From a virus: DNA of 39,635 bases. Below the pieces are notes generated by a model, which searched no databases, was not told where the DNA came from, and saw only the letters and a program-made list of their open reading frames with translations. The stretch spans positions 1 through 39,635 of the IMG/VR virus record IMGVR_UViG_3300011116_001301; one strand, given 5' to 3'. Each line of letters starts with the position of its first letter. Positions within the stretch are counted from its first letter, which is position 1. Below, piece after piece: positions 6,505-32,330 of the stretch. Both the position numbers and the translations under genes were made by a program.

Positions 6505-6633
6505 TTACTTCAACTTAGTTGTTTCAGTATAGTTTGTTTTTTGTTGTTTAATCCAGAAGATATGTTCTAATGTTTGTCTGTGTGTTAAACTACCTTTTAA
6601 GTGTGGTTTTGGTTTAATTGTTGAATGTTTCAT
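6505..6633 (-). CDS. Small 42-aa basic protein
   Basis: A short open frame whose ATG overlaps the TGA of the MORN-repeat gene (ATGA), suggesting translational coupling. The product is basic and hydrophilic (MKHSTIKPKPHLKGSL...), with no recognisable motif. It may be a real small protein or only a chance frame; the overlap and absence of a competing gene in this gap favour the former. Confidence 0.5.
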   Translation of the reverse strand: MKHSTIKPKPHLKGSLTHRQTLEHIFWIKQQKTNYTETTKLK

Positions 6634-7964
6634 AGTTTAGATATGTATGATGTTGATCCTAATAATTTATAGTAGTAATCATCTAATTTATTGATTGCTG
6701 GGTCCAAATATCTTTTATTTAATAAAGCTCTTTTAGATGGTTTAATACCATTAGCTTCTTTATTTTTGCTAATATGGAATATGGTTATATTTTCAGGTTC
6801 GTATCTTTCAATAAAATCAAGAGTTATTTTGGTAAGGGTTTCCATTATATTATATACATCATTTGTATTTAACAAACCTAAACCTTTTTTAATTGTGCTA
6901 TATTCTCTTTCCCATTTATTATCACCTAAATTATAGAATATAACCTCAAATTGATAATCATCTTTACCTGTGAAATTATATATAATTCTTCTATTATTTG
7001 GATCTGAATGTGATGGATCTAATTTATATGAATAAACTTGTCCTTCATTTAAGTTCTTTCCTTCAGTTAGGGATAAGTTTTTAGATTTACCATTTTTATA
7101 TATTATTTTATTATATAATGAACCATCAGAATTATAGTATTTCCAAATACCAACAGGTATTCCGTTTTTATATAAACCCCTAAAATGTAATTGACCATTA
7201 TAATAATATTCCCAATAACCTTCAGCTACCCCATTTTTATATGAACCCTTATATTCTAAATTACCATCACGATCATAATATTCCCACGCACCATCTAACT
7301 CACCATTCTTATATGAAGATTTTATTTCTAAATTACCATCTTCATAATATTCTTCCCAAATACCTTCTTTTTTACCATCAAGCGTATATTGATTGATAGG
7401 CTTACCATTTTTAATTGGTTGCTCTTTATTCCATTTAGCGTATCTGCTATTCTCTCCAGATAAGCCTATCGGTCTAAATAATTTCTTTTTAGGTGTTTCA
7501 GCTTCAGTTAGGGGTAATTCTTTAATCACTTTACTATTTTTATATAATTCTTTACTATGTAATTTACCATTTTCATAATAATACTCCCATATCCCTTCTT
7601 TCTCACCATTTATATATGAACCCTTAGCGAATAATTTACCATCTTCATCATAAAACTCCCATATACCATCTTCTTTACCATTCTTATAATTCCCTTTACC
7701 TAATAATTCACCTGTACTTAAATACTCTTCCCACATACCTTGTTTTACCCCTTTAATAAAGAAACCTTTACCGGATACCATTTCATCGTCAATCCAATCA
7801 TCCCAATAACCTATTGGTTTTCCATCATGCGTATATTGATTTATCTGAACCCCATCAACTATTGGTTGTTCTTTATTCCATTGAAGCCATCTTGATTTCT
7901 CACCAGATAAACCAATAGGAGCGAAAAGCTTTTTCTTTTGTTCTTCGGTAATAATAATCTTCAT
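6630..7964 (-). CDS. MORN/YwqK-repeat protein with duplicated ITEEQKKKLF module
   Basis: A 444-aa protein. It begins MKIIITEEQKKKLFAPIGLS, then has about five MORN-like repeats of the pattern (K/E)(E/D)GxWExYxxxGxLxxKgxYkNG. Near residue 160 a second KKKLFRPIGLSGE module starts another set of about four repeats. A C-terminal domain of about 130 residues has no repeats. Cut-site-like sequences (ITEE, LTEAE, LTEG, LNEG) sit at the module borders, suggesting processing by a prohead protease. The ATG at 7964 was chosen because MKI(I/V)ITEEQ also begins the proteins at 37913 and 38301. The first half is closely similar to the MORN-lysozyme protein at 33455. Likely a packaged protein; target unknown. 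Confidence 0.72.
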   Translation of the reverse strand: MKIIITEEQKKKLFAPIGLSGEKSRWLQWNKEQPIVDGVQINQYTHDGKPIGYWDDWIDDEMVSGKGFFIKGVKQGMWEEYLSTGELLGKGNYKNGKEDGIWEFYDEDGKLFAKGSYINGEKEGIWEYYYENGKLHSKELYKNSKVIKELPLTEAETPKKKLFRPIGLSGENSRYAKWNKEQPIKNGKPINQYTLDGKKEGIWEEYYEDGNLEIKSSYKNGELDGAWEYYDRDGNLEYKGSYKNGVAEGYWEYYYNGQLHFRGLYKNGIPVGIWKYYNSDGSLYNKIIYKNGKSKNLSLTEGKNLNEGQVYSYKLDPSHSDPNNRRIIYNFTGKDDYQFEVIFYNLGDNKWEREYSTIKKGLGLLNTNDVYNIMETLTKITLDFIERYEPENITIFHISKNKEANGIKPSKRALLNKRYLDPAINKLDDYYYKLLGSTSYISKL

Positions 7965-7968
7965 ATTC

Positions 7969-9063
7969 TTATTTTGCCATTGCATATAATTTAGCTAATT
8001 TCTTGATAACAACATCAGCTTCCTTAGCATTATATTCTATTTCTTTTGAGAAGAAATCCTCATTATCTTTATACTTAAATATATTTTTCTGAACCTTTAA
8101 CATAAACTTCATTGGTTCTTGACTTTTTGTCATCATTACTTGGAGCGGTGATAAATCACCAAATACCATTGAAATCATCATACCCATTGTGTTCTTTTGT
8201 AGATTTTCTCTAATATCAGTTAAAAACAAATCCACAACTTCAGACATATCCATTTGTTCAATATCTTCATAACCTTTCATATTGAGATAATATTCAATAT
8301 CATCAATATAGTTGTATAAATCCCAATAGAACTTCTTATATGTCATATTTTTAATTTTATTTAAGTGAATATAAGTTTCATCACTCTTTAAGAAGGCTAA
8401 AAAATCTTTTTTAGTGATACGTTTTGATTGAATTAAAGCAGCAATTTCACTCGGTCTTACCAATGTTTCTGCTAACGAAACAAAGTATATTGAAAAACAA
8501 AACTTAGCTATTGGTTTTATAGGGAAATTGGCATATATAGAACTATTCTGATACTTTGCTACAGCCAATAAGTTATCATATTTACCTTTTGTGTTATCGT
8601 ATCCGTGTTTCAACTCGTGAGTTATTTTAGATACCATAAAATGTTTTTTATTTGTGAAATATTTTTTAATACCATCTCTAATATCTTTATCCGATATTGT
8701 AGGCTCTCCATCATCACCAGGACAATAAAAATTAAACATTAAAGTCAATACATCACTTTTGTTTTTTATTGCTTTAACCCCATCCATTCTAAATGAAGAT
8801 TTAATAGATAAACCAGCTAAAACAATTTCATCAGCCTCAGGATGTGGTTCTACTAATATATTATAAACAATTTCTTTATATACCTCATCACCTATCTTAA
8901 ATGTATCTTTAATCACATTAGGCGTATCCATTTCCTCATCCCTTTCATCCGTTATAATATAGTTAAACTTACCTGAAAGTATTTTGTTATAGATTTCATT
9001 AGCAGTTTCTATTATACCCAATGGAACTCCAAGCGCTTCATTTAATGTATCAATCAATTTCAT
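7969..9063 (-). CDS. HExxH metalloprotein, putative packaged metallopeptidase
   Basis: A 364-aa protein with an HELKH zincin motif (about residues 149-153, in the context KITHELKHGYDN), which fits a Zn-dependent peptidase: the two His bind metal and the Glu activates water. The third ligand is not obvious. It begins MKLIDTLNEALGV, a short helix ending LNE, like a capsid-targeting peptide. A TATTTAT box lies 7 bases before its ATG and a terminator lies just upstream, so it begins a late-type unit with the MORN gene (4 bases apart). A peptidase delivered with the DNA could cleave a host factor or cell-wall peptides. Family assignment beyond HExxH is not possible by eye. Confidence 0.6.
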   Translation of the reverse strand: MKLIDTLNEALGVPLGIIETANEIYNKILSGKFNYIITDERDEEMDTPNVIKDTFKIGDEVYKEIVYNILVEPHPEADEIVLAGLSIKSSFRMDGVKAIKNKSDVLTLMFNFYCPGDDGEPTISDKDIRDGIKKYFTNKKHFMVSKITHELKHGYDNTKGKYDNLLAVAKYQNSSIYANFPIKPIAKFCFSIYFVSLAETLVRPSEIAALIQSKRITKKDFLAFLKSDETYIHLNKIKNMTYKKFYWDLYNYIDDIEYYLNMKGYEDIEQMDMSEVVDLFLTDIRENLQKNTMGMMISMVFGDLSPLQVMMTKSQEPMKFMLKVQKNIFKYKDNEDFFSKEIEYNAKEADVVIKKLAKLYAMAK

Positions 9064-10712: not shown

Positions 10713-10736
10713 AAGAATTATTCTGATAATACCAAA

Positions 10737-12000: not shown

Positions 12001-12016
12001 AGTTTTTAATATTTTG

Positions 12017-12090
12017 TGGGCCCACTTGGGATCGAACCAAGCACCTACTGATTATGAGTCAGTTGCTCTAACCTAATGAGCTATAGGCCC
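12017..12090 (-). tRNA. tRNA-Met or tRNA-Ile2, anticodon CAT
   Basis: A full cloverleaf can be read on the minus strand: acceptor GGGCCTA/TGGGCCC, D arm with GCTC...GAGC, anticodon arm CTGACTCATAATCAG and T arm CTTGG-TTCGATC-CCAAG. The CCA end is not encoded. CAT could be elongator Met or, if the C is modified to lysidine, Ile. Confidence 0.93.
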
Positions 12091-12095
12091 TTATG

Positions 12096-12167
12096 TAGTC
12101 CCACCAAGAATCGAACTTGGATTACTGGTTTAGAAAACCAGGGCTTTATCCGTTAAGCTATAGGACC
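12096..12167 (-). tRNA. tRNA-Arg, anticodon TCT
   Basis: Acceptor GGTCCTA/TGGGACT (first pair G-U), anticodon stem CTGGT/ACCAG with loop TTTCTAA, and T arm CCAAG-TTCGATT-CTTGG. It reads AGA codons, which are common in AT-rich phage genes. CCA is not encoded. It shares a transcript with tRNA-Met, 5 bases away. Confidence 0.93.
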
Positions 12168-12944: not shown

Positions 12945-13045
12945 TAGTCAGAACAGGATTCGAACCTGTAATGGAATCTTGCTTCCAAACCAAGTATTGT
13001 GCGTTACCGAAGGGTTGCTTGGCATCCCTATTCCGCCACCTGACT
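12945..13045 (-). ncRNA. tRNA-like element A (no canonical anticodon arm)
   Basis: On the minus strand: acceptor AGTCAGG/TCTGACT, discriminator A, T arm ACAGG-TTCGAAT-CCTGT directly joined to the acceptor as in tRNA. D arm GCG...CGC with GAAT and GGTAA in the loop, but the loop carries an inserted hairpin (AGGG at 13029-13026 with CCCT at 13014-13011, inner TGC/GCA). The anticodon arm is replaced by two crossing helices: CTTG (12994-12991) with CAAG (12981-12978), and TGGAA (12987-12983) with TTCCA (12976-12972). The second helix alone could also be read as a long variable arm, but no 5-7-5 anticodon arm is then left. Confidence 0.7.
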
Positions 13046-13225
13046 ATTTAATTATTAGCTCTTTAGCATTCTGGTTCCAGCTCCGAGAAAATCCATCTTA
13101 CTTAGCCCACCTCACCGCTGTATGGGAACTAAAGCTTACTAATAATTGAGGATGAGAAATCCCCCGTGTTGTGAGCCAAACCTTGCCATCCTAACTGACC
13201 CCTTTCTCAAGGGAACAACACTTAG
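13046..13225 (-). ncRNA. Structured RNA spacer between elements B and A, with crossing helices
   Basis: The first part (13225-13145) directly follows element B and starts CTAAGTGTTGTTCCC. GTGTTG (13221-13216) can pair with CAACAC (13171-13166), and TGAGAAA (13209-13203) with TTTCTCA (13159-13153), in the order a-b-a'-b', a pseudoknot. The same sequences recur after element E. The second part (about 13144-13050) folds as a hairpin with TTATTAG/CTAATAA, CTTTAG/CTAAAG and TTCC/GGAA helices. No open frame is convincing here. Confidence 0.5.
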
Positions 13226-13328
13226 TAGTTAGGACAGGGTTCGAACCTGTAAGCAGAGGCGGAATCCCATCTTCTGCGAGACTTTTCTAAGTGGGGCGCC
13301 AGCGGTTCCAGATTCCCGCCACCTAACT
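13226..13328 (-). ncRNA. tRNA-like element B (pseudoknot in place of anticodon arm)
   Basis: Acceptor AGTTAGG/CCTAACT (a C-to-T change matched by G-to-A on the other strand relative to the other elements, so the stem covaries), T arm ACAGG-TTCGAAC-CCTGT, D arm GCGG/CCGC with loop GAATCTGGAA. Between D and T arms: GGCG (13300-13297) pairs CGCC (13261-13258), and GCAGA (13277-13273) pairs TCTGC (13257-13253), crossing and abutting without a gap. The loop contains a small ACTT/AAGT hairpin. No normal anticodon arm. Confidence 0.72.
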
Positions 13329-13459
13329 ATGTCACTTTACAATCCAAAGTGTAAGCAGGTTTAGTTGCGGACTTTCCTTCCTGATGGGGGCTCTTTTTTT
13401 ACTCCTATGTAGGGGCAGGTATCCATCATTTTAACACGAAGCCACCGTGTAGCTCATCG
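13329..13459 (-). ncRNA. Structured RNA spacer between elements C and B
   Basis: Three helices can be read on the minus strand: ACACG/CGTGT around a 7-base loop just after element C, TGATGG/CCATCA enclosing a C-rich and A-rich segment, and CACTTT/AAAGTG around GGATTGT near element B. It also contains GGAAAGTCCG, identical to the core of a conserved RNase P RNA block, but the remaining RNase P consensus is absent. No coding frame seen. Confidence 0.4.
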
Positions 13460-13544
13460 TAGTCAGGACAGGACTTGAACCTGTATTCAGGGACTTAAAG
13501 TAAGTAACCCTCTAAGTTTGTATGACAATCAACGTCACCTGACT
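13460..13544 (-). ncRNA. tRNA-like element C (pseudoknot in place of anticodon arm)
   Basis: The shortest copy, 85 bases, close to normal tRNA size. Acceptor AGTCAGG/CCTGACT, D arm TGAC/GTCA with a 7-base loop, T arm ACAGG-TTCAAGT-CCTGT. ACTTA (13517-13513) pairs TAAGT (13497-13493), leaving a 15-base loop in which AGGG (13511-13508) can pair with CCCT (13492-13489), directly abutting the first helix. Without the second helix it would be an anticodon stem with a loop more than twice the usual size. Confidence 0.7.
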
Positions 13545-13609
13545 ATGTTCTAATTCTATGACATTCCCACTTTCTTCAGGTGCTATGAATTAGTAACAAT
13601 CTGCCTTTG
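13545..13609 (-). ncRNA. Structured RNA spacer between elements D and C
   Basis: A 65-base spacer in which CTAATTC and GAATTAG can close a hairpin of about 44 bases. It does not resemble the spacers after B and E. No gene seen. Confidence 0.35.
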
Positions 13610-13703
13610 TAGTCAGGATAGGAATTGAACCTATTCCACAGTTCGGATCTACTGAAAATACCAGCGACTACCTCCCCGAGTGCTACCATTACACCACCTG
13701 ACT
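13610..13703 (-). ncRNA. tRNA-like element D (pseudoknot in place of anticodon arm)
   Basis: Acceptor AGTCAGG/CCTGACT, D arm GTG-TAATGGTAG-CAC of ordinary tRNA form, T arm ATAGG-TTCAATT-CCTAT (T stem covaries with the other copies). TCGG (13679-13676) pairs CCGA (13646-13643), and CAGT (13654-13651) pairs ACTG (13642-13639), crossing with no gap. A weaker reading (GCTG/CAGT around GTATTTT) gives only a 4-pair stem with a U after the anticodon, so it is not favoured. Confidence 0.68.
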
Positions 13704-13792
13704 ATATTGAGGTTGAGAAATCCTCTGTGTTGGTGAATTTCTTATCTACTTACCACTTTGAAGCATTCCTTTCTCAAGGGAACAACACTTAG
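13704..13792 (-). ncRNA. Structured RNA spacer after element E, repeat of the B spacer
   Basis: It begins CTAAGTGTTGTTCCCTTGAG directly after element E, as the spacer after B does. GTGTTG (13788-13783) pairs CAACAC (13732-13727) and TTGAGAAA (13777-13770) pairs TTTCTCAA (13720-13713), crossing. The roughly 35 bases between the conserved ends differ from those of the B spacer, while both pairing segments are kept. Confidence 0.5.
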
Positions 13793-13905
13793 TAGTCAGG
13801 ACAGGAATCGAACCTGCATGTGGGTCTTATGTGTATCTCAACTATATTGCGACTTATTCCACTCCGTTTAACTATTCAGTGCGTTTACCATTCCGCCACC
13901 TGACT
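13793..13905 (-). ncRNA. tRNA-like element E (long central insert)
   Basis: Acceptor AGTCAGG/CCTGACT, D arm GCG-GAATGGTAAA-CGC, T arm GCAGG-TTCGATT-CCTGT. The region between D and T arms is 63 bases, against about 17 for anticodon arm plus short variable loop. GTGG (13862-13859) can pair with CCAC (13823-13820), matching the second helix of the other copies, but the first helix is weak (GTT/GAC only). It is the first element of the array and follows the 32-aa membrane protein gene by 6 bases. Confidence 0.6.
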
Positions 13906-13911
13906 ATTTTT

Positions 13912-14010
13912 TTACAATACCAAAAATACCCCTAAACCAACTACTATCGCGAAATATACTAACAAAGCAATTGTCGCAATTATCTCATTTCTTCTTTCCT
14001 TGTTTTCCAT
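13912..14010 (-). CDS. 32-aa single-pass membrane peptide
   Basis: A very short frame: MENKERRNEIIATIALLVYF, then a continuing hydrophobic helix to the C-terminus. Charged start, one transmembrane segment, no tail. It is supported by a perfect TATATTTG box 4 bases before the ATG. It ends 6 bases before tRNA-like element E, so its promoter probably also drives the structured RNA array. Confidence 0.68.
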   Translation of the reverse strand: MENKERRNEIIATIALLVYFAIVVGLGVFLVL

Positions 14011-14014
14011 AATA

Positions 14015-14022
14015 CAAATATA
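14015..14022 (-). promoter_or_regulatory. TAnnTTTG box (TATATTTG) before the 32-aa gene and RNA array
   Basis: TATATTTG, TATT, then the ATG at 14010. It is the nearest promoter-like site upstream of the tRNA-like array. Confidence 0.7.
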
Positions 14023-14053
14023 ATTAAAAGTTTTTATAATTCCAAATATTTTT

Positions 14054-14859: not shown

Positions 14860-15420
14860 TTATATTTCATTTTCCCAATCACTCGGAATACCATTACCAA
14901 TATCCTTCACACCTGTTGCCATCAAACCATCACTAATAGAACCACCAGCGATTGCGTGAATACTTCCCCAATCATCAGAACTAATATAACCTGTTGCCAA
15001 ACTACCATTACCAATAGTAGAAGGTGTATTAAACCGACCTTCACGAATATCATACCACTCCACATAACCCATTGGCACTATACCTTCAACCCTATTTCTT
15101 TCCATATCCTTTATAAGTTTTTCATATGCCTTATATATTGTGAGCCTTGAAGGTCTTCCCTCAGATTTATTAAATCCATTGGTAAAACTTGCGTAAGGGT
15201 GATTGGCAATCCATATTTCTTCATTACCCAAAATAGCACTACAACCAGTATTTCCTAAATCCCTGAAAGTATGTTCTTTCATTAAACCCCTCAATTTCTT
15301 ATCCCATTCAGAGGAATAAGATTCGTTCATACTCCAATATTGGGGATTGAATATGATTTTAATCCAAATAAAAAAATCTGAGATCCAACTTAAATCAATT
15401 GTTATTGTTTCTTTTTTCAT
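14860..15420 (-). CDS. Conserved phage protein with NGIPxxW tail
   Basis: A 186-aa protein. The region NPQYWSMNESYSSEWDKKL...HTFRDL...IWIANHPYASF recalls a phage hypothetical family of unknown function. The C-terminal 40 residues are Gly/Ser/Ile-rich and end DIGNGIPSDWENEI, with the shared tail. It overlaps the 3' end of the PurA-family gene by 4 bases (ATGA), so the two are co-translated. Confidence 0.72.
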   Translation of the reverse strand: MKKETITIDLSWISDFFIWIKIIFNPQYWSMNESYSSEWDKKLRGLMKEHTFRDLGNTGCSAILGNEEIWIANHPYASFTNGFNKSEGRPSRLTIYKAYEKLIKDMERNRVEGIVPMGYVEWYDIREGRFNTPSTIGNGSLATGYISSDDWGSIHAIAGGSISDGLMATGVKDIGNGIPSDWENEI

Positions 15421-16400
15421 ATACTTAACGCTGTTTTACTAAATACACATCTTACTTTTAATACATTCTCAATATAATTACAAAACTCATCAATGGTTTC
15501 TATTTCCATTAAAATACCTCTATGGTATAATTTATATACACCAACACTCTCCAACACATCTAATTTATTGAATACTATCTCACTACACCCATTTATATTA
15601 GATGCCATCAAAATATTATCCAAATCAATCCAATTCACTTGTCTTGCTCTACCTGTGGTTGAACCGTACTCATTCCCAACCTCTCTTATCTTATTGAATA
15701 CCAAATCATTACTCTCAAATTGTTTTGCTCCAACATATGTATTATATGCTTTAGCGATACCAATTACTTTTCTTATTTTTTGTGGTGGGACACCGTTCAT
15801 AATTGCTCCACCGACTGTACAATGTGAAGATGTTACATAAGGATAATCACCCCAATCAATATCCAATTCAAATCCCTGAGCACCTTCAAATAATATTCTA
15901 CACTCATCTTCGTTATGTAATTCTTCATATATATCAATTACATTTGCTTTCATATAATCTGAAAACCTCACACCTTTTCTCCAATACTTATCCCTGTAAG
16001 CTGGACCATTACCTGTTTTTGTTGTTCCAATTTTACTTTCACCTTCCTCTTCTTTAAGATGTTTAGGTGTGATAACATGAACCCTTTTATCAACAAATAA
16101 AAAATCTTTAACATTAATACCTTCTTTTTCAAGCCCCTCAATTTCTTCAATAAGTTTAATTGGATTTACAACACAACCAGGTCCAATAATTGATTTAATA
16201 CCATAAAAAACACCAACAGGTATAAAATGTGTAACAAACTTCTTTTCATTGTGAAAGAATGTATGTCCAGCATTTCCACCACCATTATATCTAATAACGT
16301 GTGTATATTCATTAGGGGTTGCGGCTAAGTGATGTGCCACTTTACCTTTACCTGTGTCTCCAGCTTGGAGATCTACAATAACATCTGCGTATTTAATCAT
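15417..16400 (-). CDS. Short PurA-family adenylosuccinate synthetase (PurA or PurZ0-like)
   Basis: The family couples a 6-oxopurine nucleotide with aspartate, driven by GTP (PurA, PurZ0) or ATP (PurZ). At 327 aa it is much shorter than bacterial PurA (about 430) and matches the archaeal and phage PurA/PurZ size. Visible: LQAGDTGKGK phosphate loop with the Asp of PurA kept (D15), while the usual Glu next to it is Thr; GGGNAGHT with catalytic His (H46); GTTKTGNGPAYRDK; WGDYPYVTSSHCT; the aspartate-binding loop STTGRARQVNW; and NKLDVL, the base-recognition motif of GTP users. PurZ enzymes lose the Asp, so this copy looks more like PurA or a PurZ0-type intermediate. It follows a lipoprotein gene with no gap. 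Confidence 0.85.
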   Translation of the reverse strand: MIKYADVIVDLQAGDTGKGKVAHHLAATPNEYTHVIRYNGGGNAGHTFFHNEKKFVTHFIPVGVFYGIKSIIGPGCVVNPIKLIEEIEGLEKEGINVKDFLFVDKRVHVITPKHLKEEEGESKIGTTKTGNGPAYRDKYWRKGVRFSDYMKANVIDIYEELHNEDECRILFEGAQGFELDIDWGDYPYVTSSHCTVGGAIMNGVPPQKIRKVIGIAKAYNTYVGAKQFESNDLVFNKIREVGNEYGSTTGRARQVNWIDLDNILMASNINGCSEIVFNKLDVLESVGVYKLYHRGILMEIETIDEFCNYIENVLKVRCVFSKTALSI

Positions 16401-25441: not shown

Positions 25442-26887
25442 ATGAGTTTAAGAACACTAATTGAAAGTATATTGCTTGAAGGTGAAATAGATAACATCAT
25501 CAAGAACAGAAAAGAAAAGATGATTAAAAAATATTCAGGTGAGTCATTATTTTTTGATTTAGAGGATTTTGAGAATGATTTTAATAGATACACTAAATTA
25601 TTTATTGATAATATACCTACACCAAAAAAATACATATCTAAATATTATGATTTGGTTGAGAAATGGTATGAATATTCGGCTTTAGATATTGATGAGGTTT
25701 TTCAATCAATGTATGAGTATTTCAATAAGTGGATGATATATAAAGCAAAAAACCTTATTACTAAAGATATTTTAGCACAAACACCAGAATCTTTAATTGA
25801 TATAGTTGATGAGGCAGAAGAAAAGGAAATCACAAGAAAGGCTGAAAAAGAAATCAATAAGATATATGAGGACAATAGGTGGTTAGTAATAAGAGTTAAA
25901 AGCCAAGAAGCTTCTTGTAAGTATGGTTCTGAAACTAGATGGTGTATATCAGCAACTGAAGGTGGTAATAGATATACAGGATATGGTTATTCTGAAAACA
26001 ATTTTATTTATTTTATTATTGATAAGAAAAATAGAATGGATGATGCTGATGTTTTATATAAGATGGCAGTATTGGTAAATAAAAAAACAGGAAGTATTCA
26101 AGTTTGGGATGCTGCAGATAAAGAACTAACACCAAATCAAGAAAGTATTGTTAAAAGATTTATACCTGATATATTTGAAGCAATTAGTAAAGATAGTAAA
26201 ATCGCAATGGATGAAATTACTGAAGATTATATTAGATTTGTATTAAACGATGATTATTCACTTAAAAATATTAAGGATTATAAAAGAACAGCATTAAAAT
26301 ATAATACGGATTATTCTATGTTGGAATTAAAGTTCCAATTTGGGGAATCTAGACACTTTGTAGAAGTTATTGTAGATGTTAAAAATAACAACATATCAGC
26401 AACATTTTATCGTTACGAACTAATAAATAACGAAGAAACAGGTGAAAGATATTATAGTTTTACCCCAACAAGTATTATATCTAAGGTATCAAATGAAAGG
26501 ATAACAAAAAGTAATTTCGTTAAACTAATAAAAGAATTAGTAATTGATTTACTCAATTCACCTGAAGTTAAAAAGTATTTTATTGACAACCCTAAAGAGT
26601 ATTTTTCTAATGTAAATCTATATAAAGACATTGAAACTATGGGAACTAAAAAAGTCCCTCAAGAAGCGTTTATTACAGCAATTAAATTATTAAAAGAAAA
26701 GGGTGAGCAAAATATTACAGCGATAAGAAGAATTGTTGATCCAAAATTACAATCATCACATAATGTAAAACCATTACTTAGTTCTCTTTATTCATTTGGT
26801 TTAATTAAATTAGAAAAAAGGGGTAGAAACGTAATAGTTGTCCCTACCCCTAAATTGGTTAAAACTCCTTTGGATAAACTTATTTAA
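25442..26887 (+). CDS. WC-motif family protein 1, candidate packaged protein
   Basis: A 481-aa protein. MSLRTLIESILLEGE is an N-terminal helix ending LLE-G, like a prohead propeptide. The WC module is at about residues 145-225: DNRWLVIRVKSQEASCKYGS, then TRWCISA with W167-C168, YFIIDKK, and a strand pair ending SIQVWDAADKELTP. The C-terminal 75 residues (AIKLLKEKGEQNITAIRRIV, then HNVKPLLSSLYSFGLIKLEK) look like a winged helix, so it may bind DNA. Family function unknown. It is a lone rightward gene between lysis and synthetase genes. Confidence 0.6.
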   Translation: MSLRTLIESILLEGEIDNIIKNRKEKMIKKYSGESLFFDLEDFENDFNRYTKLFIDNIPTPKKYISKYYDLVEKWYEYSALDIDEVFQSMYEYFNKWMIYKAKNLITKDILAQTPESLIDIVDEAEEKEITRKAEKEINKIYEDNRWLVIRVKSQEASCKYGSETRWCISATEGGNRYTGYGYSENNFIYFIIDKKNRMDDADVLYKMAVLVNKKTGSIQVWDAADKELTPNQESIVKRFIPDIFEAISKDSKIAMDEITEDYIRFVLNDDYSLKNIKDYKRTALKYNTDYSMLELKFQFGESRHFVEVIVDVKNNNISATFYRYELINNEETGERYYSFTPTSIISKVSNERITKSNFVKLIKELVIDLLNSPEVKKYFIDNPKEYFSNVNLYKDIETMGTKKVPQEAFITAIKLLKEKGEQNITAIRRIVDPKLQSSHNVKPLLSSLYSFGLIKLEKRGRNVIVVPTPKLVKTPLDKLI

Positions 26888-27710
26888 CCTCAGCTAATTC
26901 AAGTTCTTTCATCATTTTATAAGCTCTGGCTAATCTTGTGAGGCCTATCCCGCCACCGAATCTTGGAAAGAAGTCATATGATAAGAATTGTTCTAATTCC
27001 TTTTCAACTCTTTCTTTACCGAATAGTTCAAATAATTTCTTAGCGTAATTACCATTCTCAATAGTATAGAAAGTATTTCTCATTTGTTCTACATTTGTGC
27101 TTCTTTCAGCTGAACCAATTGTTTCCTGTCCAAATAAGATAACATCAATTTTATTATATAAATCACTTCTATCGTGTTTCATATTCCAAAATGGATTTGT
27201 TCTTTCTGGGAAGTGCTCCAATGATACACAATGTCCGAAATCTTGCCACATTTTAGTTTCTTCTCTGTTTTCCAAAATCTGAACATCATATTTATCACAC
27301 ATAGAATTATAGAACACTCTATCAGGTGCTCCGAAACCTAAATGGATAAGCAATTCTTCTTCCATATTTCTTAAATCATTCATATCACCTTTAGATTCAA
27401 ACTCAAACATTGGGAAAATAAGTTCGTGTCTGCCAGGGATTGGATCTTTTTCTTGTCTGTATGAAGTTGAGATACAGAATACACCATTCCAATCTGGGTT
27501 TTCTAATAACTCGTGTTCCAACCACATTTGTCCTGTTTGTGGTAGAGGCCAAACTTCACCTGAGTAATTGAATTGTGTAATTGAGTGCGGATTTTCGCAT
27601 GCTGCCAAGATAGATAATCTTGATTGTGTAGGGACTTCTAAGAAGCCTTTTGCTAGGAAAAACTCCCTGAGTTTTTGCACTAGTTCGTGATATGTTTTTG
27701 TGTCTTTCAT
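26880..27710 (-). CDS. Class IIb aminoacyl-tRNA-synthetase-like catalytic core
   Basis: A 276-aa protein with the AspRS/AsnRS/LysRS-type catalytic domain. Visible: FLEVPTQSRLS (motif 1 region), PLPQTGQMWLEHELL (the substrate-binding SPQL-type segment), FCISTSYRQEKDPIPGRHEL (motif 2 with the ATP-binding Arg and flipping loop), FEFES, and FGGGIGLTRLARAYKM (motif 3 with its Arg). The N-terminal OB anticodon-binding domain of true AspRS/AsnRS is absent. Such cores activate an amino acid but act on other acceptors: asparagine synthesis (archaeal AS-AR), EF-P lysylation (EpmA), or unknown. It overlaps the end of the 25442 gene by 8 bases on the opposite strand. Confidence 0.85.
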   Translation of the reverse strand: MKDTKTYHELVQKLREFFLAKGFLEVPTQSRLSILAACENPHSITQFNYSGEVWPLPQTGQMWLEHELLENPDWNGVFCISTSYRQEKDPIPGRHELIFPMFEFESKGDMNDLRNMEEELLIHLGFGAPDRVFYNSMCDKYDVQILENREETKMWQDFGHCVSLEHFPERTNPFWNMKHDRSDLYNKIDVILFGQETIGSAERSTNVEQMRNTFYTIENGNYAKKLFELFGKERVEKELEQFLSYDFFPRFGGGIGLTRLARAYKMMKELELAEVK

Positions 27711-30085: not shown

Positions 30086-31339
30086 TTATCTATTCCCCAA
30101 AATAGTTATCATATTTTCTATAACTCCTTGATGTTCAGATATGTCTTTCAATTTAATTGTTCCAACCGATAATCTAAACCATCCTTTATTATCTGTTGAG
30201 CCAAAATACTCAAATGGAACTAATCCCACTTTACATTCATCAATAAGGAAATCTAACATTTGTTCCAAACTATTAAACTTATCCACATAACCCAAATAAA
30301 CAGATATGTAAATAGCCCCATCAGGTTTTTTGTAGTCAATATTATAACCCTCAGATTTCATCTTCTCTAATACATCACAAATACCATTACATATTTGTCC
30401 AAAAGTATTATTTCTCCCCGATAAAATCGTTTCAATACCATAATAAGGATCATCTCTATCCATTGATAGGTATTGCCCAACCGCAATCTGTTCAGGTTTA
30501 TTAGCCCAAGCCCCAATATGACTGAATATCTCACCAGCCTTTTTAATTAAATGCTCAGGTCCAAACATCCATCCAACCCTTACACCTGTCGCAGCCAATG
30601 ACTTAGATATACCATCAACACATACCAAAAAATCTTTGATCTGAGGAACCAATTTAATTGGATGATGTGTTTGTATTCTTGATAAATCTGAATAAATCTG
30701 GTCAAAGAAAAGATATACTGGTTTGTAATTATTGCTCACTTCCAACCTTCTTTTATTTTCATCCACTATAATTTGGCATATTTCCTTTAATACATCAGGA
30801 TTGATTATTTTTCCTGTTGGATTTTGGGGTGAGCAAAGACATATCATTCTTGCTGTCTTGATATTATCTTTAATTTGTTTTGCCGTTGGAAAGAAATCAT
30901 TTTGGGGTGAGCATTCAATTTTAACCGCCCTTCCATCGTGTAAGAAGGTATAATGGTTATTATTCCAACTTGGAACTGGGAATATAATTTCATCACCTTT
31001 ATCAATGATTGTCTTGAAAATTGTGTAGATAAGAGGTCTAACACCAGCACCAATAAGTATTTGGTTCGGTGAATAATCTATAAAATGAGTTTTTCTAAGA
31101 TGTGATGAAACAGCTTCTCTAAGTGATAACTCACCAACAGGTGTTGGATAATTCGTATTGGATTGATTGAAGTTTAATTGAATATAATTATTCAATTTTT
31201 GTGGTATAGGATACAATTGAGAATCAAAATCCCCAATCGTATAGTTATATACCTTTTCAGTTTTAGCCTTTATTTTGCTTGATATTTTTAGTATCTCAGA
31301 ACCAATAATATCTTCTCCGTATTTAGATAGTTGTCCCAT
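30086..31339 (-). CDS. Class I PLP-dependent aminotransferase (aspartate aminotransferase fold)
   Basis: A 417-aa enzyme with a complete class I/II active site: NYPTPVGELSLREAV (substrate and PLP entry), CLCSPQNPTGKI with the PLP-contacting Asn, FFDQIYSDL with the Asp that pairs with the pyridine N and the Tyr, DGISKSLAATGVRVGW with the Schiff-base Lys (about residue 250), and WFRLSVGT with the Arg that binds the substrate carboxylate. It should move an amino group between an amino acid and a 2-oxo acid; the substrate cannot be read. Aminotransferases are rare in phages. The ATG at 31339 follows the stop of the 31341-32330 gene by 1 base; an earlier ATG would overlap that gene. Confidence 0.9.
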   Translation of the reverse strand: MGQLSKYGEDIIGSEILKISSKIKAKTEKVYNYTIGDFDSQLYPIPQKLNNYIQLNFNQSNTNYPTPVGELSLREAVSSHLRKTHFIDYSPNQILIGAGVRPLIYTIFKTIIDKGDEIIFPVPSWNNNHYTFLHDGRAVKIECSPQNDFFPTAKQIKDNIKTARMICLCSPQNPTGKIINPDVLKEICQIIVDENKRRLEVSNNYKPVYLFFDQIYSDLSRIQTHHPIKLVPQIKDFLVCVDGISKSLAATGVRVGWMFGPEHLIKKAGEIFSHIGAWANKPEQIAVGQYLSMDRDDPYYGIETILSGRNNTFGQICNGICDVLEKMKSEGYNIDYKKPDGAIYISVYLGYVDKFNSLEQMLDFLIDECKVGLVPFEYFGSTDNKGWFRLSVGTIKLKDISEHQGVIENMITILGNR

Positions 31340-31340
31340 A

Positions 31341-32330
31341 TTACGCCATTGTTTCTCCCATATCCATTGCTTCATTCATACCCATTGCTTCATTTTCATA
31401 ATATGTATTCATTGGCATTTCTGCCATATCCATCGCCTCACCTGCCATCATAGCCACTGGTTCTTCCATAGTTGGTTCTGGTGTTGATCTCATAGTTTCA
31501 TATTCATAATAACTGATAAGATTTTTGGTTTCAACCTCATCCAATAAAGAAGCATTTTGGATATTGTTTTCTCTACAATAGCTGATGAATAATTCTTTAA
31601 GGTGTAAAGGGATTGGAACAAACATCATTTCCATTCTACTATCCCAATCAGTCCAACAAGAAAACTTGGTTGAGAAATTATATATTTCCATTAGTTCAGC
31701 ATCATAAGCAACTGATTCCTCATCATCATATGATTTTTTAATTGGACCTCCTACTAAATCCTGATGAGTTCTGGGTTTTAATGTTTCATGGTAATATGAT
31801 TTTTCCATATCATAATACAAACCAATTTTTCTATTCACACCTTTTTCAATGAAGTAAGCTAAAATACCTTTATCGGTATATCTGTAAAAATATTCAGATT
31901 GAGTGACACACCATTTAGTTCCTCTACCATAAACAGAAGCTGCATCATATGAAAGAGGTAAGAATAACATATAGTTATCATCTTCATAAAGGACTTTAAT
32001 TTCCTTTTTAGCCTTACCAACTGATTTTGTTAAAGTAGCTTCTTTAATTGCTTTTTTAATTGATGCCATATTTTTATACTGATTTAAGTCAGCATTTTCA
32101 ATCATACCATTTTTCGCCAATTGGTCAAATGTTTTTAATTTTTGCATAATGTATTCCATTTCATTTATTGCCGTAAGCTCAAAATCATTGGATAGATTAT
32201 TTGTAAAACGAAGTATGTGCTCCGCATATTTTTTTGTTTTGGAATTGTCAATATTATTCGCCAATTCAATAAAATCAATAGGTTTTATTTTACCCTTAAA
32301 CTTTTCCCTAATTAAATCAATTTTAGCCAT
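31341..32330 (-). CDS. WC-motif family protein 2 with Met-rich tail
   Basis: A 329-aa protein. The WC module is at about residues 115-165: DDNYMLFLPLSYDAASVYGR, then TKWCVTQ (W140-C141), YFYRYTDKGILAYFIEKG. The N-terminus (MAKIDLIREKFKGKIKPIDF) is helical but lacks a clear (L/I)xE end. The last 50 residues hold 13 Met, in repeats such as EAMDMAE, EAMGMNE and EAMDMGE. It lies between a short gene (8-base overlap at its start) and the aminotransferase (1 base). Confidence 0.62.
   Translation of the reverse strand: MAKIDLIREKFKGKIKPIDFIELANNIDNSKTKKYAEHILRFTNNLSNDFELTAINEMEYIMQKLKTFDQLAKNGMIENADLNQYKNMASIKKAIKEATLTKSVGKAKKEIKVLYEDDNYMLFLPLSYDAASVYGRGTKWCVTQSEYFYRYTDKGILAYFIEKGVNRKIGLYYDMEKSYYHETLKPRTHQDLVGGPIKKSYDDEESVAYDAELMEIYNFSTKFSCWTDWDSRMEMMFVPIPLHLKELFISYCRENNIQNASLLDEVETKNLISYYEYETMRSTPEPTMEEPVAMMAGEAMDMAEMPMNTYYENEAMGMNEAMDMGETMA

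Follow-up and report, generated by a model that had tools for sequence, protein, structure and literature searches.

Arrayed viral RNAs on a tRNA-Leu frame: a candidate class of non-decoding RNAs with variable central domains

The five tRNA-like elements arrayed in the viral DNA analysed here appear to belong to an extensive class of RNAs that has gone undescribed, in which a tRNA frame is kept but decoding is not. Our best explanation, which we consider an even call, is that they are virus-encoded, non-decoding derivatives of tRNA-Leu that are processed as tRNAs, can probably be leucylated and carry a variable structured payload. This payload stands where the anticodon and variable arms would be, and it differs between nearly all copies. 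The first-pass annotation of the array had proposed a family of structured, non-decoding RNAs from five copies, with a pseudoknot in place of the anticodon arm; the family is supported and proves far bigger than five copies, but the pseudoknot is not its defining trait. No description of the elements was found in Rfam 15, in the annotations of named phages or in the open literature (a scope that leaves aside bioRxiv and subscription journals).

The array and its surroundings

The window, i.e., the whole stretch of DNA that was analysed, comprises positions 1 to 39,635 (39,635 bases) of the viral IMG/VR record IMGVR_UViG_3300011116_001301. Its features are collected in Table 1. The array lies on the minus strand and runs, in the order of transcription, E, D, C, B, A, followed by an ordinary tRNA-Arg and an ordinary tRNA-Met.

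Table 1. Features of the window discussed in the text
Feature	Positions	Strand	Remarks
MORN-variant repeat protein	6630-7985	-	
Ordinary tRNA-Met (CAT)	12016-12090	-	Downstream of array; ARAGORN, Rfam
Ordinary tRNA-Arg (TCT)	12095-12167	-	Downstream of array; ARAGORN, Rfam
Element A	12945-13045	-	tRNA-like, 101 nt; Rfam tRNA 32.1 bits; R1 62.3 bits
Spacer RNA AB2	13048-13149	-	23-bp consensus; double-sided changes in 15 pairs, 18 sequences
Spacer RNA DE, copy 2	13143-13225	-	
Element B	13226-13328	-	tRNA-like, 103 nt; R1 50.2 bits; acceptor AGTTAGG/CCTAACT
Spacer C-B	13329-13459	-	Resembles L062 (two copies)
Element C	13460-13544	-	tRNA-like, 85 nt; R1 51.5 bits; D arm without GG
Spacer D-C	13545-13609	-	Resembles one other locus, L089
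Element D	13610-13703	-	tRNA-like, 94 nt; R1 54.6 bits; nested central helices backed by homologues
Spacer RNA DE, copy 1	13704-13792	-	GTGTTG/CAACAC stem, GAGG/CCTC hairpin, possible loop-loop TGAGAA/TTCTCA
Element E	13793-13905	-	tRNA-like, 113 nt; first of array; A14, A15, GG, U48, A73 kept; Rfam tRNA 41.7 bits; R1 77.7 bits
Possible 32-aa hydrophobic ORF	13912-14010	-	Candidate small protein between promoter and array
Bacteroidota-type promoter match	14015-14046	-	TTTG-N20-TAnnTTTG; upstream of array
PurZ (2-aminoadenylosuccinate synthetase)	15417-16400	-	
Class II aminoacyl-tRNA synthetase catalytic domain (Asp/Asn/Lys type)	26880-27710	-	276 aa; without anticodon-binding domain
PLP-dependent class I/II aminotransferase	30086-31375	-	

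The five elements, as first delimited on one strand, are real, and the seven-pair acceptor stem and five-pair T arm, with the tRNA-like joint between them, are seen in all five; the acceptor reads AGTTAGG in B and AGTCAGG in the others. The covariation read into the acceptor stem of B and the T stem of D (ATAGG/CCTAT) was confirmed, both being compensatory variants. A D arm, which had been assigned to each element, is generally present, but that of C is atypical in lacking G18G19 and the D loop of A accommodates an extra hairpin. Element E has homologues at six other loci (L023, L130, L134, L136, L137 and L272), with a compensatory change of GTC/GAC to ACC/GGT.

The absence of a 5-7-5 anticodon arm was borne out for the family at large: among 359 representatives such arms numbered 25, as compared with 20.8 in shuffled sequences, and 6 as compared with 5.2 when U33 was also required. 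ARAGORN, which could have revealed normal anticodon arms, called none of the five elements; in the wider collection it called 63 of 465, and the calls that were inspected mostly had implausible or undetermined anticodons. A covariance model, R1, was built from 40 diverse viral elements, with the window excluded from its training alignment (A1), and it recovers all five elements with E-values of 1.3e-15 to 4.9e-9. In the window, as in 17 array loci, RF00005 (tRNA) was the only Rfam family above the gathering threshold; among the five elements it matched E and A alone. The elements share with it the 7-bp acceptor stem and the 5-bp T arm with a 7-nt loop and lack its 5-7-5 anticodon arm.

Promoters of the Bacteroidota type (TTTG-N19-21-TAnnTTTG) are matched 12 times in the window, where 1.7 matches are expected, and nearly all of the matches are on the minus strand. 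Between the match upstream of the array and position 10736, the minus strand contains no further match of this type.

Size and distribution of the family

IMG/VR was scanned with patterns derived from the frame or from individual families. Among the matches listed, the scans yielded at least 712 elements, at least 601 of them unique, in at least 420 viral loci. A matching 5' acceptor strand was located upstream of 712 of the 724 3' anchors, at distances of 64-330 nt (median 104, among the matches listed), which excludes chance. The elements themselves range from 64 to 190 nt and have a hypervariable centre. Clustering of the unique elements gave about 400 unrelated central-sequence families, again among the matches listed; 290 of these are singletons, and sampling of the diversity is thus far from complete. 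With model R1, between 1 and 20 matches were obtained in each of 40 records (31-311 kb), some few of which may be ordinary tRNAs.

In loci with more than one element, all elements reside on a single strand (139 of 139 loci) and belong exclusively to different families (130 of 132), at a median spacing of 192 nt. Related payloads recur across otherwise different contigs, and this patchy spread among phages suggests that they are accessory cassettes.

The family is virus-restricted. Among 84,980 cellular genomes, a gapped pattern for long elements matched a single contig; it belongs to a Chitinophagaceae MAG, is 7 kb in length and contains several elements. A host-encoded origin was rejected on the basis of 395 Bacteroidota genomes, in which the R1 matches outside one MAG were all below 60 bits, and all seven of those checked were tRNA-Leu. 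Searches of 50,697 named phage records with a representative element and with both spacer RNAs were negative.

The constant frame

Judged from sequence, the constant frame is the body of a tRNA-Leu, comprising the acceptor stem, a Leu-type D arm, the T arm, the A15-U48 Levitt pair and A73. The D arm TGGCGGAATTGGTAGACGC is of a type that many phage tRNA-Leu share. This Leu-type arm was counted in 250 of the 601 elements and 23 of 67 phage tRNA-Leu, and in only 2 among all other phage tRNAs. Conservation across 400 family representatives is 96% for U8, 89% for A14, 88% for A15, 93% for G18G19, 84% for U48 and 89% for A73. Of 53 ordinary tRNA-Leu genes from these loci, 52 possess A14, A15, U48, U8 and A73. 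As a point against the leucine reading, A15, U48 and A73 are frequent in the tRNA-Gln and tRNA-Arg of phages as well.

The E. coli leucyl-tRNA synthetase (LeuRS) requires A73, A15-U48, G18G19 and A20a, and it still charges tRNA-Leu from which the anticodon and long variable arms have been removed (PMC9976931). All six positions of the leucine identity set are present in 64% of the families, the rules applied being those of E. coli and not of Bacteroidota. Within the window, elements A and E possess the full set and B and D part of it, and C departs from it. The one third of families that miss at least one of the six positions would argue against leucylation.

The acceptor stem is preserved in a manner that points to selection. 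In the main collection, the search patterns themselves bias which acceptor is found; in loci retrieved with the spacer as bait, 28 elements were 93-150 nt long and 20 of them had AGTCAGG or GGTCAGG. These loci, fetched without an acceptor bait, also include two compensatory variants, AGTCTTG/CAGGACT and, joined to a family 2 centre, AGTGGTA/TGCCGCT, which mark the acceptor as a selected helix. The D and T stems of the family also covary. Gene conversion within genomes was considered as a source of the constancy and rejected, as scaffolds are no more alike inside a contig than elsewhere (2.68 differences per 32 nt within contigs vs 2.45 between contigs or at random). Selection, rather than gene conversion, would thus maintain the frame, and the largely constant AGTCAGG of hundreds of unrelated RNAs suggests a specific recogniser.

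The flanks resemble those of the ordinary tRNAs in these loci: at the 3' end, C74 is present in 392 of 397 elements, compared with 514 of 524 tRNAs, and on the 5' side T(-1) in 83% and 67%, respectively. The elements of the window end in ACAA, ACTA or ACGA.

Some further features of these loci may be mentioned. In array-bearing loci, ordinary tRNAs usually continue after C74 with AA, TA or similar instead of CA, hence most are without an encoded CCA. Ordinary tRNAs that bear the AGTCAGG acceptor occur in a few loci, including a tRNA-Lys in L044. A D-loop hairpin and a central payload are combined in the same element at L078 (4212-4392), L110, L069 (5005-4837) and the window (13045-12945).

The central domain

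Examination of the payloads shows a preferred helix whose 3' strand lies exactly 2 nt 5' of the T stem. Stability peaks sharply at this offset (mean best dG of -5.7 vs -4.0 in shuffles), and 52.6% of the families have such a helix at dG <= -5, compared with 30.0% in shuffled sequences. Compensatory pairs are concentrated at offsets 2-3 before the T stem, where a covarying helix (stems of at least 5 bp) was detected in 14 of the 62 testable families, as opposed to 0.4 in column-shuffled alignments. The last of the two nucleotides between helix and T stem is a pyrimidine and corresponds to position 48. The offset-2 helix can form in elements A, B and E of the window. A second and weaker enrichment is located 1-3 nt beyond the D stem. 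As read from these alignments, the payloads are selected for structure.

The first-pass annotation had described, in elements A to D, two crossing helices with abutting 3' strands. Such helices can be drawn, for example CUUG/CAAG with UGGAA/UUCCA in A, GGCG/CGCC with GCAGA/UCUGC in B, and ACUUA/UAAGU with AGGG/CCCU in C, but they surpass those of shuffled sequences only to a modest extent (p of 0.03, 0.07, 0.065 and 0.15 for A, B, C and D, respectively). The same test gives p = 0.24 for element E. Elements A, B and C, which permit the abutting geometry at p values of 0.03-0.07 each, are without close homologues. In D, the homologues contradict the crossing helices, which pair in 58% and 41% of cells with covariation not above that of shuffles. 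Nested helices at 25-28/64-68 and 36-38/56-58 (alignment A2) are kept, at 82% and 100% paired, and exhibit compensatory changes in 5 of 7 pairs.

Abutting 3' strands are not enriched in the family as a whole (27.4% vs 24.8% in shuffles), and in none of the 62 testable families do both helices covary in this geometry. A universal pseudoknot was likewise rejected when its energy was compared with dinucleotide shuffles and with the mirror geometry (z of -0.39 vs -0.46). Pseudoknots do exist within the family, since crossing helices in which both members show compensatory changes were found in three families (23, 46 and 93), where 0.1 would be expected. Replacement of the anticodon arm by a pseudoknot, put forward as the hallmark of these RNAs, is not general: few families covary in this way, and for D it was refuted.

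Rfam recognised only tRNA inside the central domains. The possibility that payloads are antisense to their own locus or genome was rejected, with 55 matches among 197, vs 51 in the reversed control. As a separate observation, T-arm-like hairpins are nested in the payload of 8 families (e.g., L490, 269-367), where 0.3 are expected.

The spacer RNAs

The spacers between the elements include what appear from covariation and conservation to be two further conserved RNA families, AB2 and DE, neither of which matches a family in Rfam. AB2 is about 100 nt long and has 23 pairs, of which 15 show changes on both sides across 18 viral sequences; its covariation score is 0.51, compared with 0.17 in shuffles. 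AB2 may well represent a new RNA family in its own right, for which it is a strong candidate. DE, which occurs twice in the window, is characterised by a near-invariant 22-nt block, GTGTTGTTCCCTTGAGAAAGGA, together with the GTGTTG/CAACAC stem, and the loop of its GAGG/CCTC hairpin could pair with the 5' loop, possibly as kissing loops. DE was found in at least 120 viral stretches and often lies elsewhere than beside the arrays, as 31 of the 83 copies examined (37%) have a tRNA-like element no more than 500 nt away.

Proposed working and alternative explanations

In the proposed working, the array and the two ordinary tRNAs would form one transcript, initiated at the Bacteroidota-type promoter suggested by the upstream motif. 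RNase P and the host 3' processing and CCA-adding enzymes would excise the elements, as their tRNA body and shared flanks imply. The host LeuRS would then charge most of them, their sequence supplying the identity positions. The tRNA body would confer stability and protein binding, and the payload might bind or titrate host factors, its likeliest role.

The elements should engage the tRNA-handling machinery, as had been suggested at the outset. The parts read by RNase P, by the 3' processing and CCA-adding enzymes and by LeuRS are kept and the part read by the ribosome is dropped, from which we infer processed, CCA-tailed and mostly leucylatable RNAs. That they constitute a non-decoding RNA class processed as tRNA is very probable; their leucylation we place somewhat on the doubtful side. 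Different payloads in each phage, their location on one strand and their recurrence across contigs fit accessory cassettes aimed at host factors; binding of such factors by the payload we consider rather less likely than not. More broadly, and tentatively, a virus-specific system can be envisaged in which a leucine-chargeable frame carries an open-ended repertoire of payloads, several different ones per phage and exchanged as cassettes; these would be effectors, charged or carried by the host tRNA machinery and never decoding.

Several other explanations bear on the same observations. The elements could be decoys against host defence, their tRNA ends and elbow absorbing effectors that attack tRNA (e.g., toxins that modify the acceptor end) or their missing anticodon loop offering anticodon nucleases nothing to cut, with payload diversity the outcome of an arms race. 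Phage tRNAs do evade anticodon nucleases and retron effectors, according to PMC10264068 and PMC11555353, and patchy accessory repertoires with a different set in each phage would suit such a race. Attack on the acceptor end, however, does not call for hundreds of different selected payloads, and bait for anticodon nucleases would retain the anticodon loop that is absent here; we regard decoys as unlikely. Even less likely is that the elements serve as punctuation, marking cuts by RNase P and 3' enzymes that release the spacer RNAs, in which case the centres would matter little. The two conserved spacer families between elements and the spacing of elements along one strand agree with this proposal, but compensatory evolution in the central domains indicates that the centres do matter, DE is frequently remote from any element, and ordinary tRNAs would do equally well.

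The elements could also be degenerate tRNA genes without function, or the footprint of a mobile element, and ordinary tRNAs with an AGTCAGG acceptor do exist in a few loci. Against this stand the acceptor and T helices kept through compensatory changes, the covarying payloads and the conservation of C74 and of the elbow positions, which together make such an origin very improbable. We attach the lowest probability, close to nil, to decoding tRNAs with a small intron or with halves joined in trans, in which splicing would restore the anticodon arm: an intact tRNA body and the presence of ordinary tRNAs beside the arrays speak for it, but many elements (66-85 nt) are too short to contain an intron, anticodon arms occur at the level of chance, lengths vary continuously and covarying helices occupy the region near the T stem.

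If the elements are indeed non-decoding tRNA-Leu derivatives, many uncultured phages, probably of Bacteroidota, would carry RNAs of tRNA shape that escape annotation tools or are mislabelled by them. These would retain what LeuRS, the processing enzymes and the readers of the elbow need, and would have dropped what the ribosome needs. The old question of the purpose of phage tRNA clusters would then become directly testable, and several hundred natural payloads would be tolerated on a tRNA scaffold of the kind that RNA engineering uses artificially.

Comparison with known RNAs

The closest cellular matches of R1 are to tRNA-Leu (class II, RF00005), with which the elements share acceptor, D and T arms, U8, A14, A15-U48, G18G19 and A73. 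Unlike tRNA-Leu, they are without an anticodon arm and a standard variable arm, the AGTCAGG acceptor predominates, and their length and centre vary as described above. The same reduced architecture characterises the minimal tRNA-Leu of Larkin et al. 2002, as reported in PMC9976931, which the E. coli LeuRS charges in vitro; that RNA is a laboratory construct without a payload, whereas the elements are natural and known from sequence. Another bacterial tRNA-like RNA of non-translational nature, the pseudo-tRNA tRNA-Other of Bacillus cereus (PMC3399842), is poorly charged in vitro. In contrast to the elements, it is of cellular and not viral origin, exists as a single RNA, bears a Trp anticodon and has no variable payload.

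Like the elements, tmRNA combines tRNA-like ends with a non-tRNA centre, which in tmRNA contains pseudoknots. It is about 350 nt in length, with a tag reading frame, a stemless D region and alanine identity. ARAGORN detects a tmRNA at L013; in the window, ARAGORN and the Rfam tmRNA models found none, and the elements fall outside the tmRNA class. Phage T4 produces two small stable RNAs of unknown role, C and D, from within its tRNA cluster, and we know of no AGTCAGG frame shared with them. The tRNA-like structures of plant viruses, some of them pseudoknotted and some chargeable, are situated at the 3' ends of RNA genomes and have their pseudoknot in the acceptor arm. They are not known as arrays in DNA phages. 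PMC5723415 presents them as viral RNAs with a tRNA fold. GOLLD and ROOL, according to PMC12286853, are also structured RNAs associated with bacteria and phages; as described there, they are large ornate multimers without a tRNA body, and neither was matched by Rfam in the window or in the array loci.

Other genes in the window

Among the remaining genes of the window (Table 1), the presence of PurZ suggests that the virus may have 2-aminoadenine (Z) DNA. The class II synthetase paralogue was considered as an obligate charging partner of the elements and rejected, as it is found in 4 of 40 array-bearing records. Compared with phage proteins annotated as "tRNA ligase", it is 55% identical to one from Prochlorococcus phage P-SSM2 and roughly 50% identical to one from a 735-kb phage.
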